A stretch of DNA of 39,538 nucleotides from Nitrospirota bacterium. Its GTDB lineage: Bacteria > Nitrospirota > Nitrospiria > Nitrospirales > UBA8639. Positions 1,026-38,222 of the stretch are shown here, piece after piece. Where the stretch lies: positions 1 through 39,538 of the forward strand of contig RFGT01000069.1 in NCBI GenBank assembly GCA_003696975.1, given 5' to 3'. Numbering within the stretch: the stretch's first letter is position 1; every line of letters starts with the position of its first letter. The position numbers were made by a program, and so were the translations under genes. The notes under the pieces are model-generated. The model saw only the letters and a list, made by a program, of their open reading frames with translations, did not search any database and had not been told where the DNA came from.

Positions 1026-1469
1026 ATGTTTTTCGATCCCGCCATTGCCGCCCAACAGGCTCTGCATCGTGCCGAGGAACAGGGTGAACTTGGACCTTTC
1101 CACAAGGAAATTGTGGAAGCGGAAGAAATCTTTTCATGCGATGAAAGTTCGGAGGCAACTCAGGCCTTCGAGCGACTGCACCACTTTGGGGAACAGCTTC
1201 CCCATGCCCGAGCCTTTCAAGAATTTCTCATCTACCTTACTTGGCAGCAGGTCATGGCCCAACCCCTTCCTCACCATCTTCAAAAAGGATGGGACTTATG
1301 CAACCGATTTCTGAAACGCTTTGGCCCACAACTTGAGGGATCTCAGGCGCTCCAACAGGTGTTGGCCATGCGAGAGTCATTTCGGAAGGGGATTGGCATC
1401 CATGTGGAGAGCCAGGAAACTTTGATCTCAGAAGAATATGATCAAGAGGCATTCTCCAGCGGAGATTAA
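1026..1469 (+). CDS. Conserved-looking hypothetical protein, 147 aa
   Basis: The ATG follows a purine-rich GAGAGGAAGCC ribosome binding site. The product is 147 residues, acidic, mostly helical and rich in Gln, Glu and His, with no signal peptide or membrane segment. The pattern of short amphipathic helices (for example FERLHHFGEQLPHARAF, then LHHFGE and WDLCNRFLKRFG) suggests a small cytosolic helical bundle. I recognise no domain. Competing frames on both strands are shorter and of poorer composition. The next gene begins 84 bases downstream on the same strand, so the two may be cotranscribed. Confidence 0.6.
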   Translation: MFFDPAIAAQQALHRAEEQGELGPFHKEIVEAEEIFSCDESSEATQAFERLHHFGEQLPHARAFQEFLIYLTWQQVMAQPLPHHLQKGWDLCNRFLKRFGPQLEGSQALQQVLAMRESFRKGIGIHVESQETLISEEYDQEAFSSGD

Positions 1470-1553
1470 AGCTCCCCTGATACGCGCTGGGTCCCGAGGT
1501 CAATCCAGACCAAGGCGGCAAGGCGGCGGTACGAGCCAATTTACAGGGATTCC

Positions 1554-2003
1554 ATGACGTCGCATCCAGCAAGCCAGGCAGGTCAGGAGGTTATCCGATG
1601 GAAAGCCTATCCTGCCTGGTCACACTTTCTGTGGTTATATTTTTTCAGCGCATTGACAGGGTTTCGAGCCTTGCCGCTCATCTGGTCCGGAGTTGAGGGA
1701 TGGGAAGTCTGGCTAGGTGGAGCTCTGGCGTTACTGGGTTGTGCCGCAGCCCTTCGGCATTGGGCTTTTTACTACATGACTTCCACACGGCTGGGGATCA
1801 TCAATGGATATACTGGACGCGAAATCGCTTCTCTCGCTATTGCCGAAATTGGCGAGGTGGTGGTCAGGCAAGGGCTTTTAGCCCGATGGCTTGATATCGG
1901 CACATTGGTGATCACGTCCGCAAAGCAAGAGAGTTACCTCTCTTTCAAAGGGATCCACCGCCCTGAGGTGATCAAAACCCGCTTGTTGGCTCTGTCCCGG
2001 TAG
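1554..2003 (+). CDS. Membrane-anchored bacterial PH-domain (bPH2/DUF304-type) protein
   Basis: The 149-residue product has two hydrophobic segments (about residues 24-45 and 52-70), followed by a cytosolic domain of about 80 residues. That domain has the look of the bacterial pleckstrin-homology family: YYMTSTRLGIINGYTGRE, then a strand pair leading to LDIGTLVITS, and a final FKGIHRPEVIKTRL helix. Proteins of this family (YdbT/DUF304-like) are membrane-associated and usually of unknown role. The length fits the single-domain form. The start is an ATG at 1554; there is no strong Shine-Dalgarno. It probably shares a transcript with the gene at 1026. Confidence 0.7.
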   Translation: MTSHPASQAGQEVIRWKAYPAWSHFLWLYFFSALTGFRALPLIWSGVEGWEVWLGGALALLGCAAALRHWAFYYMTSTRLGIINGYTGREIASLAIAEIGEVVVRQGLLARWLDIGTLVITSAKQESYLSFKGIHRPEVIKTRLLALSR

Positions 2004-2208
2004 GGGCCTCTCATGCGTTCGAATCCTTACCGGCAAATAGCTCTCTCAACCAGGACTGAAACGGGTATCAGTCACCACGAGGAGAGATGCTCCATCGAAA
2101 TCCTTTCTTCTGCTCGCAAGTTCCATAAGTTCGGTAATGGAGCCCATATGCTATAGAGCCAAGTCCTCCGAGACGCCACTGCGCGAATGCTATCTCACCG
2201 CTTCTCCT

Positions 2209-5648: not shown

Positions 5649-6941
5649 TTATTGAGTAAGCAAAGAAACCACGGGCTGAAACAGGGCACGACATTCCTCT
5701 GGAGAGACATGTAATACGTTCGCCAGCTTCTCCAGCTTCTCGGGACACGATAGATCGCTCGAGGAGAGGCGAGCCATATATTCTCGCGCAATGCAGTACG
5801 ACTCTGACGTAATATCCACCAGTCGAATTTTGGCCTTTCCTGTGACAGGATCCAGCATATCTTTGAAAGGCAGCGGTGTGAAGCGTCCATCATAAATAGC
5901 TACCATCGCCGCGCTGCCTCCCTCCAGTAAGTACTGAGCTGCACAATATCCCAGATCGCGTGTATATTCCATGTCAAAAGGGATCGGATCGGCACAACGC
6001 AGTTCATAGCCAATATTTTTTGTCACAATGGTGAGCTTGATGCCGTAACGCTCGAGCAGGCGCTGCACGGTTTGCTTGAGAACGTCTCCGATGTTCAGTT
6101 CCGAGAGGCGAAGATGGCCATGCTCGTCACGCTCGATTGTTCCCAGCATGGACAATTCCTCTTCTTCAAGCAACTCGGCTAATCCTTCCGCAAGCACGGC
6201 AACGCCATGCGATTTGCCCTCACTGATACGCTTTACGATTGAGCTTAACAGAACCAAAGACAGCGTGTTGAGCTTGAGGGGACGGCAAGGGAACTCCTCG
6301 GGAATCACCGTGATCGCACTGCCGGCAGCTTTACCTATTCCCAAGGCCAAATGCCCGGCTTTTCGGCCCATGGCTACGGCAAAATACCATCGGGATGTGG
6401 TCTGTGCATCGACCATGAGGTTTTTGACAATCTTCACGCCGTAATGGCGAGCTGTTTGAAACCCAAATGTGGAGATGCCATGAGGAAGACTGAGGTCGTT
6501 GTCGATCGTCTTCGGGACATGAACCACCTGAAGCGTCCCGTGGGCGCGTTCTTCCAGTTTCATGGCCGAGGACGCCGTATCATCACCTCCAATGGTGATC
6601 AATCGCGTGACCCCCAGCCGACGCAGCGTGTCCAGCGTGCGTTCTAAGGCCTGTGGCGACTTCGCGGGATTAGCTCGTGAAGTGCCCAAGATCGACCCTC
6701 CTTGAAAGTGAATGCGGTTGACCGTATCCGGGGTCAACAGCCGTATTTTGGTCAGTTCGCCCTGCATAAGCCAAAAGAATCCATCCAGAATGCCGACTAC
6801 CTCATTTCCATGTGCTATGCTCTGTAATGTCGCTGCTGCAATGACACTGTTGATCCCTGGGGCTGGGCCGCCTCCCACCAAAATGCCAACTTTCTGAGTC
6901 GAAACGGGCGTAGTATGTTCCTGAAATTGGGTTGCGCTCAT
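5649..6941 (-). CDS. 6-phosphofructokinase, PPi-dependent type
   Basis: This enzyme interconverts fructose 6-phosphate and fructose 1,6-bisphosphate. The phosphoryl-donor site reads GGDD at residues 118-121, where ATP enzymes have GGDG, and is followed by PKTIDND at 143-149 with Lys in place of the ATP-enzyme Gly. In studied members this Asp/Lys pair selects pyrophosphate over ATP and makes the reaction reversible. The N-terminal VGILVGGGPAPGINSVI loop and MGRKAGHLALGIG motif also fit. At 430 residues it is of the mid-length class. It lies 22 bases after a small exported protein gene on the same strand, suggesting one transcript. PPi specificity is inferred from residues, not shown. Confidence 0.88.
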   Translation of the reverse strand: MSATQFQEHTTPVSTQKVGILVGGGPAPGINSVIAAATLQSIAHGNEVVGILDGFFWLMQGELTKIRLLTPDTVNRIHFQGGSILGTSRANPAKSPQALERTLDTLRRLGVTRLITIGGDDTASSAMKLEERAHGTLQVVHVPKTIDNDLSLPHGISTFGFQTARHYGVKIVKNLMVDAQTTSRWYFAVAMGRKAGHLALGIGKAAGSAITVIPEEFPCRPLKLNTLSLVLLSSIVKRISEGKSHGVAVLAEGLAELLEEEELSMLGTIERDEHGHLRLSELNIGDVLKQTVQRLLERYGIKLTIVTKNIGYELRCADPIPFDMEYTRDLGYCAAQYLLEGGSAAMVAIYDGRFTPLPFKDMLDPVTGKAKIRLVDITSESYCIAREYMARLSSSDLSCPEKLEKLANVLHVSPEECRALFQPVVSLLTQ

Positions 6942-30413: not shown

Positions 30414-31973
30414 TTAGGTTCTACTACTCCGTCGCGCTTGGAGAAAGCCTTCAATGGCATGCGCCACATCTTCGTGGGTGGGAATGGTGGTGACGAATGG
30501 CCATTCATCCTGACTAAACGGTTCCCGAACCTGATGCTGCTGTTCCACTACGGCGATCGTGGCATCAGAGGCATCGGCCCCACGAGTGGCAACCCGCTCG
30601 CGAAGGATCGTGTCTGGAGCGGTACAGGCAAGAATGGAAAAGGGAATCGCCAAGCGCTGGGCCAACTGTCGAAATCGGTGGCGATGTCTGCGTTGGAGAA
30701 AGGTGGCGTCCACGATTACAGGATATCCCGCCTGAAGCAATGTGTTGGCCACGGTTTCAAGCCGTTCATATACGGCATCGGTCATCGCCGGGGTATACAG
30801 GCGCTCTTGCAGGGACGCCGGCGGCCGGACACCAGGCGGAAGGCCAAACAGGCGCTTGCGCTCCACATCGGAGCGCACGCGAATAGCCCCAATGGCTTCA
30901 AGGAGAAGCTGGGAGACGGTTGTCTTACCTGATCCTGAAATCCCCTGCATGATAAAGAGGGTAGGGACCTGGCGACGGATGAGATGAGCGGCAAGCGCCA
31001 CATAATGGAGACAGTCCTCCCTGGCCTTGTCCTGCGTCCCACCCTGTGTCTTCCCCCGAAGAGCGGCGACCTTTGCCCGGACCAGTGCCCGATACGGTTC
31101 ATACACCTGCAAGCATGGCACACCTTCGTAATCGCCCGTGCATTCCAAGTAGCCATTGAGAAATCGGCTTGCCAAATCTTGCCGATTTCTGGCTTTGAGG
31201 TCCATCACCAAAAACGCCACTTCGCTGATCACGTCAATCCAACGCAGTAGGGGATTGAATTCTAGACAGTCGAACACGAGCACACGGTTCTCGACCAGTG
31301 CCATATTGCCGAGATGAAGATCGCCATGACATTCCCGCACAAACCCCTGGGCTTTTCGACGCTCCAGCATAGTGCTGAAGGAAGAGGCCATGCAGGATGC
31401 CCATTGGGTGAGGTCTTGGAGCTCATCCTGGATATGCGGCGTGAGCCATGCCTGGGGTACATCAGGTATGGCCTCGGTAATAGCCCGAAAAACGACGTCC
31501 GGCTCACCATATGCTGTTTCCGGGCCAGCCACATCGATGTGCTCGTGAAAGTGAGCCACCTTGCGGGCAAGGCTATCGATCTGGGCAGACGTCAAGCGCC
31601 CTTGGGCCAAGACTCGATCAAGTTGAGCATCCGGCGAAAACTGTCGCATCTTGACAGCATATTCCAGGGGAGGCCCGGTCCCTTCTACCACGGGTCGTGT
31701 CATCGTACCGCAAATCGGCACGACAGCCTGGTACAACTCCGGGGCCAGACGGCGATTGAGCCGGAGCTCTTCCTCGCAGAAATGATGGCGTTTCTCGAGA
31801 GTGGAAAAATCCACAAAGCCAAAGTCTACGGGCTTCTTGATCTTATAAGCAAAGGGCCCCGTCAGCAAAACCCAGGAAATATGGGTTTCATGTAGCTCGA
31901 TATGGGTGACATCATGGGGATAACAAGAGGGATGGAGCAAGGCGTCAATGAGTGTCACTGGATGCGGAGCCAC
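30414..31973 (-). CDS. APH-like kinase fused to a P-loop nucleotide kinase
   Basis: Two phosphotransfer modules in one 519-residue chain. The N-terminal half is aminoglycoside-phosphotransferase-like, with HGDLHLGNM at 216-224 and VFDCLEFNP at 233-241, which carry the catalytic Asp and metal-binding residues. The C-terminal half is a P-loop kinase: GISGSGKTT at 344-352, then VRSDVERKRLFG and VIVDATFLQ. This fusion is known as the bifunctional APH/ATP-binding family and has no firm substrate. The start is a GTG 34 bases after the phosphoketolase stop, with no clear ribosome binding site. It is the last gene of the phosphoketolase block. Confidence 0.8.
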   Translation of the reverse strand: MAPHPVTLIDALLHPSCYPHDVTHIELHETHISWVLLTGPFAYKIKKPVDFGFVDFSTLEKRHHFCEEELRLNRRLAPELYQAVVPICGTMTRPVVEGTGPPLEYAVKMRQFSPDAQLDRVLAQGRLTSAQIDSLARKVAHFHEHIDVAGPETAYGEPDVVFRAITEAIPDVPQAWLTPHIQDELQDLTQWASCMASSFSTMLERRKAQGFVRECHGDLHLGNMALVENRVLVFDCLEFNPLLRWIDVISEVAFLVMDLKARNRQDLASRFLNGYLECTGDYEGVPCLQVYEPYRALVRAKVAALRGKTQGGTQDKAREDCLHYVALAAHLIRRQVPTLFIMQGISGSGKTTVSQLLLEAIGAIRVRSDVERKRLFGLPPGVRPPASLQERLYTPAMTDAVYERLETVANTLLQAGYPVIVDATFLQRRHRHRFRQLAQRLAIPFSILACTAPDTILRERVATRGADASDATIAVVEQQHQVREPFSQDEWPFVTTIPTHEDVAHAIEGFLQARRSSRT

Positions 31974-32007
31974 AAGCTTGACCAGGTGTTACGGAGACAC
32001 CATGGGC

Positions 32008-34374
32008 TCAACTATAGGGCCATGTCCAGTTTCGGATTTCCGGCATGTCTTCGCCATATTGCACAATGTATTCCCTGTGCTGGATGCGCTTATCGCGCAT
32101 CGCCTGCTTTGCATATGCCGCCATTGCCCCTAGCGTCGGCACTCGATCGATAACATCCATGACCAAATGAAATCGATCCAAATCATTGCGGACCACCATA
32201 TCGAATGGCGTGGTGGTGGTTCCCTCTTCCTTGTAGCCCCGGACATGCAGGTTGCGATGATTGGTCCGGCGATAGGTCAACCGGTGAATCAACCAGGGAT
32301 ACCCGTGAAACGCAAAAATAATGGGTTTATCCGTGGTAAACAGCGTGTCGAATTCTTTGTCGGATAATCCATGGGGATGCTCGCTCTGGGGCTGGAGCTT
32401 CATGAGGTTCACCACGTTGATCACCCGAATCTTCAACTGCGGCACATGCTGCCGGAGCAAATCCACCGCAGCCAGCGTCTCCAACGTCGGAACATCCCCG
32501 CAACAGGCCATGACGACATCAGGCTCTGTCCCTTTGTCGTTACTCGCCCATTCCCAAATCCCAATACCCGCGGTACAGTGGGTGATGGCTTGCTCGATGG
32601 TCAAATACTGCAGCTCTGGTTGTTTGCCAGCCACGATCACGTTGACATGGTTGCGGCTGCGCAGACACTGATCGGTCACGACCAGGAGGGTATTCGCATC
32701 AGGTGGCAAATACACACGGATCACCGTCGCTTTTTTGTTGACCACGTGGTCTAGGAATCCAGGATCCTGATGGGAAAACCCATTGTGGTCTTGCCGCCAG
32801 ACATGGGATGACAACAGATAGTTCAGCGAGGCAATAGGAGCGCGCCAGGGGATTTCCTGCGAGGAGACTTTCAACCACTTGGCATGCTGGTTGAACATGG
32901 AATCGACAATATGCACGAATGCTTCATAGGTGTTGAACAAGCCATGTCGGCCTGTTAACAAATAGCCTTCCAACCATCCTTGGCAGGTATGTTCACTCAG
33001 GATTTCCATAACTCGCCCATCAGGGGAGAGATGTTCATCTTCTGGAAGGATCTCGCCGAGCCAGGTTCGTTCCGTGGCCTCGAAGACGGCATTCAGTCGG
33101 TTGGATGCCGTTTCATCAGGACCAAAGATTCGAAAGTTGCGGTGATCTTGGTTCAACTGCATGATATCTCGAAGAAAGCGCCCCATTACTCTGGTGGCCT
33201 CGGCCAACACGACGCCGGGTTTGGGCACCTCTACGGCATAGTCTCGAAAATCGGGCATGCGGAGTTCCTTGAGCAGGACCCCGCCATTGGCATGAGGGTT
33301 GGCGCTCATCCGGCGGGTTCCTGTCGGCGCAAGGTCCCGGAGGACGGAAATGAACCGGCCGGTCTCATCGAACAACTCTTCTGGTTTGTAACTTTTCATC
33401 CAGCCTTCCAGCAGGCGGATATGTTCCGGGTTATTCGCCATCTCGGACAGCGGGACTTGATGCGACCGCCAGAAGTCTTCAATCTTTTTGCCTTCTACTT
33501 CCTTGGGGCCAGTCCATCCCTTGGGGGTTCGCAACACGATCATGGGCCATCGCGGCCGCGTGACTGTGCGGTTAGCTCGGGCCTCGCGCTGGATCTCATG
33601 AATGTGAGCTATCACTGTTTCCAGCGTGCTGGCCATCGCTTGATGCATCGGAGGAGGATCGCTCCCTTCAACAAAGTAAGGATGATACCCGTAGCCCCTC
33701 AGCAAGCTCTCGAGCTCTTCACGGCTAATGCGGGCCAACACCGTGGGGTTGGCAATCTTGTAACCATTGAGATGGAGGATCGGCAGGACCGCTCCATCCG
33801 TCATGGGATTCAAGAATTTGTTGGAATGCCAAGCCGTGGCTAACGGCCCAGTCTCGGCCTCGCCGTCCCCCACCACACAGGCCACAATGAGATCTGGATT
33901 GTCGAATGCCGCACCAAAGGCATGGGACAGGGCATAGCCTAACTCCCCGCCCTCATGAATGGAGCCTGGTGTTTCGGGAGCCGCGTGACTGGGAATGCCT
34001 CCAGGGAATGAGAATTGTTTAAACAGTCTTCGCAGGCCTTCCATATCTTGGGAGACGTGCGGGTAGATTTCGCTGTATGTGCCTTCCAGATAGGCATTGG
34101 CCACCAAGCCAGGTCCGCCATGGCCCGGTCCGGCGATATAGATCATATTGAGGTCGAACCGCTTAATAACTCGATTGAGATGGACGTAGATAAAGTTGAG
34201 CCCTGGTGTAGTTCCCCAATGACCGAGCAGTCGGGGCTTAATGTGTTCCCTGGTCAGCGGTTCCCTCAGCAGGGGATTGTCCAGAAGATAGATTTGTCCC
34301 ACAGAAAGGTAATTGGCAGCTCGCCAATAGGCATCGATCAGACGTAATTCGTGGTCGCTTAGCGGTCCAGCCAT
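32008..34374 (-). CDS. Xylulose-5-phosphate/fructose-6-phosphate phosphoketolase
   Basis: This thiamine diphosphate enzyme splits xylulose 5-phosphate or fructose 6-phosphate with phosphate, giving acetyl-phosphate. The 788-residue length and motifs fit: [56 protein letters not shown] (the ThDP site), [11 protein letters not shown], and [15 protein letters not shown]. The ATG follows AAGGAGG at 6 bases. It lies 51 bases after the trehalose-phosphatase gene and upstream of the APH-kinase fusion. Acetate kinase is encoded on the same strand 2.3 kb upstream, which completes a route from sugar phosphate to acetate and ATP. Confidence 0.96.
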
Positions 34375-34425
34375 TGCCTTCCTCCTTACGCAGGATTTTT
34401 TCCAACCTCATGATCAGCATCGCGA

Positions 34426-35349
34426 TCAGCCACCTTCGTCAGTGACCGAGGGCTCATGAGTCTGGAATTCCCCCCAGTCTCGTGATATATGCTGATCCAA
34501 CACCTCGTCACATAATCGATCCAGAAAGAGCTTGACCTCATCCGGTGAGGCAAGACGGTATTGGGCATATGTGGGGCGGTCCCCTTCGTTTACGACAATT
34601 CCCAGCCCTCTTTCTTGGACGACCCGCAAGGCGGCTTCATCCGTCAGATCATCGCCAAGATAAAGGGGCAGCACTTCCTCTCGTTGCCGTTGACCTGATA
34701 GAGCTTGGAGAATCCACCACAATGCTGCTCCCTTATCCCATGCAACTCGGGGTCGTAGTTCATAGACGCATAGCCCCTCGATCTTCTGTAAATGGGGCTG
34801 ATGGGCCAGTATGCTTTCGATCACCTCCTGAACCATAGGCAGATTCTGAGAGTGAGTCAATCGATAATGGACAGCCACAGAAAATTTCTTCTGTTCGAGA
34901 AAAACCCCTTCCACCCCCTGAAGATGTCGGCGAAGCTGAACTTCAGCCTGGCGCAGGGCCGGGAGGGCATGGACACCTTCCTCATGGCGGAATCTGTAAC
35001 GCTTGGAGCCCATGATATCGAACCCATGGCACCCTGCATAGATCACTGAATCCAGTTGGACTAGCCGTTCCACATCTTCTCGATCACGCCCGCTGATGAT
35101 CCCTACTGGACACCGAACCGCTAGTCGCCTGAGGGTCGTTCGCATGGCTGGCGCAAGTTCTGCCTGTTCTGGCTGATCTGCTAGAGGGGAGAGCGTACCA
35201 TCGTAATCCAAAAAGATGGCCACGGCTTTCCCTGGGACCTCCTGCAGAAGACGCGCAAAGGCTTGACTTGCATGGGGGAGCGCTTGAATCGTTTGGAGAG
35301 GCTTCACTTCATTCTGAGCGGGTTGGATAGACCGGGAATCGCCACTCAC
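34426..35349 (-). CDS. otsB: Trehalose-6-phosphate phosphatase
   Basis: A HAD-fold phosphatase that releases trehalose, a stress protectant. Motif I FLDYDGTLSPL carries the nucleophile Asp (about residue 48 from this start). IISGRDREDVERLV, YAGCHGFDI and GDDLTDEAALR (motif IV) are all in place. I chose the GTG at 35349, which has AAAGGG 5 bases upstream; the frame reaches a TTG at 35406 with no good site. No otsA synthase is in the window. The gene sits between the pentapeptide gene (upstream) and phosphoketolase (51 bases downstream). Confidence 0.9.
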   Translation of the reverse strand: MSGDSRSIQPAQNEVKPLQTIQALPHASQAFARLLQEVPGKAVAIFLDYDGTLSPLADQPEQAELAPAMRTTLRRLAVRCPVGIISGRDREDVERLVQLDSVIYAGCHGFDIMGSKRYRFRHEEGVHALPALRQAEVQLRRHLQGVEGVFLEQKKFSVAVHYRLTHSQNLPMVQEVIESILAHQPHLQKIEGLCVYELRPRVAWDKGAALWWILQALSGQRQREEVLPLYLGDDLTDEAALRVVQERGLGIVVNEGDRPTYAQYRLASPDEVKLFLDRLCDEVLDQHISRDWGEFQTHEPSVTDEGG

Positions 35350-35441
35350 TTGAACCCTTTCAATCTCGTCTGCACCCACTTCCAACCAAAACCTCTCAAA
35401 AGCCAAACCCTATTCTTTTGGACTCCGGTCGGATTGATTTT

Positions 35442-35461
35442 TCCCCTGAGCTATCAGGGGA
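35442..35461. repeat. Perfect 8-bp stem-loop between pentapeptide and otsB genes
   Basis: TCCCCTGA (35442-35449) and TCAGGGGA (35454-35461) pair exactly across GCTA. It lies 12 bases beyond the pentapeptide stop codon and in the leader of the otsB gene. On the minus strand it is followed by A's, not T's, so it is not a classic terminator; it could limit readthrough or shape the otsB leader. Confidence 0.7.
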
Positions 35462-35472
35462 GGAGCGAGCTG

Positions 35473-36207
35473 TCAATATTCGACTTCTTTGGCGCCATGC
35501 TGGAGAGGATCGAATCGATCAGGCCAGGTAGTCATGGCATTGAAGGTCGCACCTTCGAGGTGCGCGCCATCTAGATTCGCGCCTTGCAGAAATGTGTCGA
35601 AGAAGACGGCCTGACGAAAATTTGTGCCCCGAAGGTCGGTCTTCTCCAAGTTGGTGATTTCGAGAGTCGCTCTTGTTAGATCGCTGTAGGCCAGAATAGC
35701 TCCCCTAAAATTGGTGGCCGTCAGATTGGCCCTCGCGAGATTGGCCATGGCGAGATTAGCCCGGAACAATACTGCTTCCGAGAGATCCGCCTCTTGGAGA
35801 TCAGCCGACCCCAAGAAGGCATCTTCCAGATCTGCGCCTTGGAGATTGGCATGTGCCAGATGGGCGCCTCCCAAAAATGCTCCTTTGAGATTCGCATGCT
35901 GGAGATCTGCCCCTGTCAGATCCACATCCATTAAGATGGCTCCCTCCAAATCCGCACCACTCAGGTTGGCAGCGGCCAACGTAGCTGATGTGAGAATGGC
36001 TCCCTTGAGAGAGGCACCCTCAAGATTCGCTTCTGACAAATTGGCATTGCTCAAGATTGCCTGATTCAACATGGCCTGCTTTAGTGTACACCCTGCCCAC
36101 TCAACACGAGGGGTGGGAGGATCGGTACATTTCGCCAAGATCGGATCCGTCCAGGCAAAAGGCCAAATAAGGATAGTCATTACCATGAGCACGTATCGAG
36201 CCATCAT
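35473..36207 (-). CDS. Exported pentapeptide-repeat protein
   Basis: After a signal peptide (ARYVLMVMTILIWPFAWTDPILA, cleavage near Ala-Lys-Cys) come about 30 repeats of the A(D/N)LXX type over residues 40-220, for example ANLSGADLEGAILMDVDLTG. These stack into a right-handed quadrilateral beta-helix. There is a Cys at the predicted mature end region (KCTDPPTP) and another at WAGCTL, so one disulfide is possible. Cytosolic pentapeptide proteins can shield gyrase, but an exported one is more likely structural or wall-associated. Function unknown. It has the DnaA-box region upstream. Confidence 0.93.
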   Translation of the reverse strand: MMARYVLMVMTILIWPFAWTDPILAKCTDPPTPRVEWAGCTLKQAMLNQAILSNANLSEANLEGASLKGAILTSATLAAANLSGADLEGAILMDVDLTGADLQHANLKGAFLGGAHLAHANLQGADLEDAFLGSADLQEADLSEAVLFRANLAMANLARANLTATNFRGAILAYSDLTRATLEITNLEKTDLRGTNFRQAVFFDTFLQGANLDGAHLEGATFNAMTTWPDRFDPLQHGAKEVEY

Positions 36208-36645
36208 AAATGATCTCCTTTCGCATTCGTAGTCTCTCTGCCTCCCGCGGGGGTAGGAGGGGAATCTCCTTCATTGTATGGAAAATGCATAAGCCAGGGC
36301 TACAGCAAAAATTGAACCAGAAAGCACTATCCCCAATTTCTGTGGATAAACTGGGTACAATCCTGAGAAGACAGATGGTTTTTTCAGGAAAGAGCCCTGA
36401 ACCAACAGATTGCCTACTTTTTAAGCATAGCAGTCAAGAAAAGTCTTACCACAATATCTTGTTGATTTTTATGGACAAGTTTGAGGCATTAAGATTTTTA
36501 TCAATCTTAAGCTAGCATTATCTTCAGTCTACTAAGGGACTTCCCCAATAGGTTCGCGAGTTATCCACAAGTTTTCACAACTTCTGTGCATAACACCCCT
36601 AATGGTTTTACCCAGAACCCATGAAGCGGTGAGGCAAAGCAACCC
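36208..36645. other. 438-bp AT-rich gap with DnaA boxes, possible origin or DnaA-binding site
   Basis: Three 9-mers match the DnaA-box consensus TTATNCACA: TGTGGATAA at 36341-36349 and TTATCCACA at 36561-36569 are exact matches to the strongest box, and TGTGCATAA at 36585-36593 is a consensus variant. TTATGGACA at 36469-36477 is one base off. Between them the DNA is A+T-rich, with GATTTTTAT twice (36464-36472 and 36493-36501) and an 8-bp inverted repeat TTAAGATT/AATCTTAA (36489-36510). On the minus strand TTAGTAG follows the boxes at 36535-36529. It holds no gene. No dnaA or dnaN gene is in the window. Confidence 0.55.
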
Positions 36646-37896
36646 TCATACAGCCGAATCAGGAGCAAGAGAAGCCATCGTTTCTCGAGCAATCCATGTT
36701 TCTTCATCTGTGGCCCCCACATACACAGTGATAGGGGTATGATCGGGACTAATACGGGCAATTTCTCCGGGAGCGAGGTGGACAATCTGACGATTCCGCT
36801 CGGCATCGAGAAGGAGTCCGCACCATTCCATCCCATGACAGATTCGAGCCCGAACCTCCGGGGCATGCTCACCGATTCCCCCCCCGAAGATAATTGCATC
36901 CGCACCGCCCAACACCGCTAGATAGGCCCCAAGATATTTACGTGCACGATAACAAAAAAGATCGATCGCAAACTGGGCACGGGGATCGCCCTCCTGAAGG
37001 CTAGCCTGGAGGAGGGCACGCATCTCCCCAGATCGGCCAGACACCCCAAGAAGCCCAGAACGTTCGTTCAGCCATCGTTCCACTTCAGCAACATCCACCT
37101 GCTCACGCTCGGCGAGATAGCCCACGATGGTGGGATCAAGATCTCCCGATCGAGTGCTCATCATAAGACCCTCAAGAGGGCTGAACCCCATCGATGTATC
37201 AATGGCCTGCCCATGCTCAATCGCCGTGATGGAGCATCCACTGCCAAGTTGCAGCGTAATAAGGCGGACGTGCGTTAGCTCACGACCTGTCCCGCGGGCG
37301 TAACTGGCCGCAAGTGCCCCATGAGCGATCCCGTGGAACCCATAACGCCGAATGGCATGTCGTTCAGCTATCTCGGTTGGAAGGGCATAGAAACGGGCCA
37401 CGTGGGGAAGGGTGTAGTAAAAGGCGGTATCAAAGACGACCACCATAGGAATCTGCCCCCCGAGTCGTTCCCGCGCACCATAGATTCCTTCCAGGCACGC
37501 CGGGTTGTGCAGTGGAGCCAAGTCCCCAAGTTTTTCCAATTCCAACAGCACGGTCTCATTAACCCGAGTAGGGCCGACATAGCGATCGCCCCCATGCACC
37601 ATTCGATGGCCAACCGCATCGATCTGATGGAGAGAAAAGGCACAGAAAGGAAACGACTCCGTCATCTTGTCGAAAATCCAATGAACCGCTTCTCGGTGCG
37701 TGCGAATCCGCTTGGACTCCATGACGGTGGGTCCTCCCGCAAGGTGGAGTTCCATTGTGGCATGGTCACCAATTTCGCGGACAAGGCCTGCGAGGAGTGG
37801 ATGATAGGCCCCCATATCAGTAAAAGCCCCCTCACAAACCTCGAAGCCACGGACTTTGAGGGAAGAACTTCCGCTGTTCAAGACAAGCACGCGCAT
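36646..37896 (-). CDS. ackA: Acetate kinase
   Basis: AckA turns acetyl-phosphate and ADP into acetate and ATP. Motifs: RVLVLNSGSSSLKV at the start, VGHRMVHGGDRY, AFYYTLP, RYGFHGIAHG, LQLGSGCSITAI, STRSGDLDP and GGIGEHAPEVR. I place the start at the ATG at 37896, just before RVLVLNSG, giving 416 aa as usual; GGTGAG lies about 10 bases upstream. A longer frame to 38076 adds 60 residues with no family match. It is downstream of the tandem UspA gene and shares the strand with phosphoketolase. Confidence 0.94.
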   Translation of the reverse strand: MRVLVLNSGSSSLKVRGFEVCEGAFTDMGAYHPLLAGLVREIGDHATMELHLAGGPTVMESKRIRTHREAVHWIFDKMTESFPFCAFSLHQIDAVGHRMVHGGDRYVGPTRVNETVLLELEKLGDLAPLHNPACLEGIYGARERLGGQIPMVVVFDTAFYYTLPHVARFYALPTEIAERHAIRRYGFHGIAHGALAASYARGTGRELTHVRLITLQLGSGCSITAIEHGQAIDTSMGFSPLEGLMMSTRSGDLDPTIVGYLAEREQVDVAEVERWLNERSGLLGVSGRSGEMRALLQASLQEGDPRAQFAIDLFCYRARKYLGAYLAVLGGADAIIFGGGIGEHAPEVRARICHGMEWCGLLLDAERNRQIVHLAPGEIARISPDHTPITVYVGATDEETWIARETMASLAPDSAV

Positions 37897-38222
37897 GGGT
37901 GGGTGACTCACCAGGCAGAAGTGACACTGTCTCTCGCGAAAGGCAATCGTTCTGTGCCCCTCGGCATAGCCTTTTCCCGCATGGCGATAACATGTCACAT
38001 CATACACATCCTTCTTAGCCCAACGCACATATTCTGTCAGGAATCTGTGGAAAACATTGGAGAGATACAGTGTCAAGGAGGGAAAACCCGTGATCCTCGA
38101 TGGCGGTCGGGGACGATCTGGAAACCAAAGAAGACCCCTTGGATTGCCCTGGCTCCGGTGCCAGCAAGAAAAGAAACGAAGATCCTATAAACGCTTGAGC
38201 GAGAAGGACCAACTCTGATTCG
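37897..38222. other. 326-bp gap between usp and ackA genes
   Basis: No gene is visible. On the minus strand a TTGACA at 38076-38071 is a good -35 but no matching -10 lies at the right distance. TGTGGAAAA at 38046-38054 is one base from a DnaA box. Confidence 0.35.

Follow-up and report, generated by a model that had tools for sequence, protein, structure and literature searches.

The 438-bp gap between an acetate kinase gene and a pentapeptide-repeat protein gene in a Nitrospirota bacterium (GCA_003696975.1) carries a cluster of DnaA boxes beside AT-rich repeats, raising the question of whether it is a replication origin, a DnaA-titration site or another kind of DnaA-control locus. The gap lies in the window, the whole 39,538-nt stretch of contig RFGT01000069.1 that was analysed, which is contig 151 (C151) of a 2.77-Mb, 273-contig draft genome. 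Stepwise analysis does not support an origin. It identifies the site as one copy of an intergenic element, found in essentially every genome tested of two families of the order Nitrospirales, built like the Escherichia coli sites (DARS) that recharge the replication initiator DnaA and most likely of the DARS type, with DnaA binding and nucleotide exchange inferred from sequence and by analogy.

DnaA boxes in the intergenic region

The observation recorded in the earlier note is confirmed. The box TTATCCACA is present at 36561-36569 (+) and 36341-36349 (-), and TTATGCACA at 36585-36593 (-), all within 253 bp. The AT-rich repeat GATTTTTAT occurs at 36464 and 36493, and CTACTA, the minus-strand TAGTAG, at 36529 as a single hexamer. 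The gap has a GC content of 42%, falling to 31% in its middle (36430-36535). Genome-wide, TTATNCACA is not clearly enriched, with 49 sites in 2.77 Mb against 38 for the reversed-pattern control, yet this is the only triple within 253 bp in the assembly; from that density about 5e-4 such triples are expected, so the cluster is not a chance occurrence. The note's statement that no dnaA or dnaN is nearby also holds, as both lie on another contig. Its interpretation, a candidate origin or DnaA-titration site, is only partly supported: the origin half is not supported, whereas the DnaA-control half is right in spirit but too general. The order of box pair, GC-rich spacer, trinucleotide and AT-rich DNA, which the note had likened to unwinding elements of origins, is not part of the conserved element described below.

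The features of the region are as follows:

36646-38076 (-): acetate kinase gene ackA (Pfam PF00871); the element lies about 185 bp past its 3' end.
36585-36593 (-): accessory DnaA box TTATGCACA, convergent with the box at 36561-36569, with a weak box GTTTTCACA at 36571-36579 between them; a weak partial match to the element model R2 covers 36574-36595 (-), 3.6 bits.
36561-36569 (+): accessory DnaA box TTATCCACA, outside the conserved element.
36436-36574 (+): possible degenerate second copy in the opposite orientation, overlapping the upstream part of the first; marginal (R2 8.0 bits, E 0.086).
36328-36463 (-): copy of the conserved DARS-like element, R2 positions 34-169 (R2 64.8 bits, E 1.9e-19 in the window; an earlier model, R1, 73 bits).
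36449-36458 (-): GATATTGTGG, the conserved ATATTTTGTGG block upstream of the palindrome.
36411-36428 (-): palindrome ATGCTTAAAAAGTAGGCA, an exact match to the Fis consensus GNNYANNNNNTRNNC.
36352-36360 (-): core box III, weak, TTGTACCCA, two mismatches, 11 bp from box II (12 in most copies).
36341-36349 (-): core box II, TTATCCACA, exactly 79 bp from the palindrome start.
36327-36335 (+): core box I, CTATCCCCA, two mismatches, opposite orientation, 14 bp from box II.
35473-36207 (-): pentapeptide-repeat protein gene (Pfam PF00805), its start 120 bp beyond the element.

Relation to the chromosomal origin

The genome has a standard dnaA-dnaN-gyrB-gyrA locus at which dnaA stands at the head, on contig 191 (C191), with the boxes TTATCAACA (+), TTATCAACA (-) and TTATTCACA (-) upstream of dnaA. 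The same 0/11/23 box pattern stands upstream of dnaA in many relatives. GC skew, named beforehand as a test of the origin reading, was sampled in two complete relatives (G010 and G017) and changes sign at dnaA, while the elements lie elsewhere. The box cluster next to AT-rich DNA, and the resemblance of the convergent pair at 36561/36585 to the box pair upstream of dnaA (convergent, 22-24 bp apart), are the features that favour an origin or a second origin. The dnaA-upstream region differs from the element in spacing and box sequences, lies beside dnaA and gives only weak model matches. The dnaA locus with its own boxes, the skew switch at dnaA in the two relatives and the occurrence of the element in 2-4 copies per genome make the origin reading very unlikely.

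Contig 84 (C84) of the same genome, whose very end carries two exact TTATCCACA boxes 32 bp apart (6871-6911), was considered as the missing upstream side of dnaA; its large ribonucleotide-reductase-like gene (1185 aa) is not next to dnaA in relatives, leaving this assignment unsupported, and the boxes upstream of that gene may mark a DnaA-regulated nrd promoter cut by the assembly. In one relative (G005, contig C129, 7804-12855) ackA lies about 2.5 kb upstream of dnaA with a hisS-like gene between, probably a coincidence of gene order.

A conserved intergenic element in Nitrospirales

A BLAST search of the whole gap against the family recovered only a 25-nt stretch, 36406-36430, found again in the same genome (contig 41, C41) and in two relatives, once again just downstream of ackA, and in each case with a DnaA box or near-box further on. 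A degenerate search found more copies, and in most of those with a box the distance from motif start to the box was exactly 79 bp. The exact convergent pair TTATNCACA-N0-20-TGTGNATAA was also searched, but is rare and often at dnaA, so it is not the conserved unit.

Alignments of 15 and then 43 copies show a ~170-bp element comprising TACGTA, ATATTTTGTGG, the palindrome ATGCYTAAAAAWTAGGCA, 61 variable bases and then a box cluster. A sequence model finds it in 49/49 genomes of the family, usually in 2-4 copies each; the present genome has copies on C41, C151 (this window) and C227. The search of the phylum found it in 117/296 genomes, including nearly all of two Nitrospirales families, often in exactly two copies in the second, with weak scattered matches beyond. 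In 2.3 Mb of background R2 gives no unexplained hit above 15 bits, the only unexplained matches being weak ones at the dnaA-upstream boxes. The upstream third of the window copy diverges from the model. The marginal second copy in the window may parallel the clear divergent pair in one relative (G063, locus L141), where copies at 1417-1587 (-) and 1915-2081 (+) share one intergenic region.

A functional RNA is not supported, with no Rfam match, no covariation and a consensus fold of only -1.27 kcal/mol. The 32 copies inspected are intergenic, apart from short overlapping unassigned ORFs, and are not at dnaA or the skew minimum. Neighbouring genes fall into a few recurrent classes (ackA, response regulator, carboxypeptidase, hemW-type gene, dnaE/ybjQ), among others, without consistent orientation relative to the element. 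This variation argues against a regulatory region where DnaA and a Fis-like protein control transcription of the neighbouring gene, although copies lie between genes, the window copy is 120 bp upstream of a gene start, and E. coli DARS1 and DARS2 themselves lie in the uvrB and mutH promoter regions (PMC5835720); such a role remains improbable. The presence of several copies at different loci could suggest a mobile or miniature repeat, or chance similarity, but this is disfavoured and very unlikely, given a low, stable copy number in every genome, recurrence at the same loci in different genera (carboxypeptidase, hemW/DUF, ackA and response-regulator classes), conservation confined to protein-site-like blocks, and a tree in which copies largely group by locus class, indicating old fixed sites rather than fresh insertions. 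The window copy does not group firmly with the other ackA copies.

Core geometry shared with DARS1 and DARS2

Scoring every offset of the 43 copies for DnaA boxes gives three clear sites: direct, 12 bp later direct (the strong one, TTATCCACA), and 14 bp later inverted. This is by far the best spacing, with 31 of 43 copies scoring 3-6 mismatches while a background of 2 million positions never scores below 7; twelve copies not used for the model score 4-6, against 7 or more in 194 background segments. The DARS core in E. coli is likewise three boxes with identical spacing at both loci and box I opposed to II and III (PMC5742627). In MG1655, DARS1, located in the bioD-uvrB gap and not the uvrB-ybhK gap, and DARS2, in the rppH-mutH gap, fit direct-12-direct-14-inverted with 2 and 3 mismatches, respectively, whereas datA has 6. 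Given 316 kb of MG1655 including oriC, dnaA, datA and nrdAB, R2, built only from Nitrospirales copies, returns exactly two matches, DARS1 (16.7 bits) and DARS2 (11.4 bits), ungapped on the core and in the right register. The DARS2 match alone (E 0.061 in 316 kb) would be weak without DARS1 and the geometry. The window copy is a weaker example, with box II exact, box I carrying two mismatches at 14 bp, and box III two mismatches at 11 instead of 12 bp, compared with 2, 1 and 2 mismatches at 12/14 for the C41 copy.

A passive titration or DnaA-inactivating site, datA-like or like the Bacillus DnaA-box clusters, would bind DnaA and limit initiation without reactivating it; several perfect boxes, few copies and intergenic location are compatible with this, as titration needs no special geometry. 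The strict 12/14 spacing and opposed orientation shared with DARS, the absence of an R2 hit at datA, and a Fis-consensus palindrome at fixed spacing, which titration does not explain, make it unlikely. E. coli datA is also a non-coding DnaA-box cluster outside oriC, but has a different box arrangement and requires an IHF site. The DnaA-box clusters of Bacillus subtilis and the Streptomyces cluster are ectopic boxes outside oriC that affect initiation, and B. subtilis is stated to lack DARS loci (PMC13220808).

Fis-like palindrome and a Fis homologue

Within the palindrome, GCYTAAAAAWTAGGC matches the Fis consensus GNNYANNNNNTRNNC, as quoted in PMC8682772, exactly in 33/43 copies, with the total far above shuffled sequence. 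The genome encodes a 196-aa protein ending in a Fis domain (PF02954, E 1.2e-12), with a helix-turn-helix very like E. coli Fis, about 16.5 kb from dnaA on C191 (18032-18622 of locus L024), making it a candidate partner of the palindrome. Its best NCBIfam match is Fis (E 6.5e-15), although it carries an extra N-terminal part and scores below the NCBIfam cut-off. DARS2 of E. coli needs both Fis and IHF (PMC8682772), whereas IHF sites are not clearly enriched in the element, with 3 exact matches against 0.8 expected and 15 one-mismatch matches against 13.4.

Probable mode of action

The site is, with fair confidence, one of about three copies per genome of a conserved non-coding DnaA-control element of the DARS type, inferred to turn ADP-DnaA into ATP-DnaA. 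By analogy with E. coli DARS, ADP-DnaA would assemble on boxes III, II and I, and DnaA molecules on the opposed boxes I and II would meet head to head through their AAA+ domains, releasing ADP, after which the freed DnaA would rebind ATP and could fire oriC. A Fis-type protein at the palindrome, 79 bp (about 7.5 helical turns) upstream, would switch or stimulate the site, as Fis does at DARS2. The boxes at 36561 and 36585 may be accessory, like the extra boxes of DARS2, or the remnant of a second, opposed copy. The analysis itself establishes lineage-wide conservation, intergenic location at several unrelated loci, box geometry equal to DARS1/2, the Fis-consensus palindrome at fixed spacing and the encoded Fis homologue, whereas binding of DnaA and of Fis, nucleotide exchange and any effect on initiation timing are inferences. 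The element shares with DARS1 and DARS2 the three-box core, intergenic location, two to three loci per chromosome and, with DARS2, a putative Fis-type site predicted from the consensus; it differs in that nothing outside the core aligns, a single conserved palindrome replaces the IHF/Fis array, neighbouring genes are other ones, and the phylum is different. Copy number varies, and positions relative to oriC differ among genera.

The sources examined, limited to openly accessible literature and thus not excluding earlier reports outside Proteobacteria, describe DARS only from E. coli and nearby beta- and gamma-proteobacteria (PMC5742627). The present element suggests that this control is far older than E. 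coli and its relatives. It is somewhat more likely than not that DARS-mediated DnaA reactivation, coupled to a Fis-type protein, is an old bacterial system present at least in Nitrospirota as well as Proteobacteria, with a simpler one-palindrome design in Nitrospirales. A DARS-type element in a distant phylum makes it testable whether cycling of DnaA between ADP and ATP forms is an ancient control or an E. coli speciality, and provides a natural minimal design (three boxes plus one Fis-like site) for dissecting the mechanism, together with a handle on replication control in a little-studied lineage that includes nitrite oxidisers.

Chromosomal position and gene neighbourhood

In the few complete genomes covered, labelled G113, G150, G194, G198, G289, G239, G166, G200 and G293, one copy of the element often lies about a quarter (0.24-0.31) of the chromosome away from dnaA, suggestive of a conserved mid-arm position but confounded by shared descent. 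Around the window copy, a leftward block at 30414-38076 comprises phosphoketolase, trehalose-phosphatase, acetate kinase and an APH/AAA kinase gene, a putative carbon-storage or phosphoketolase pathway island.
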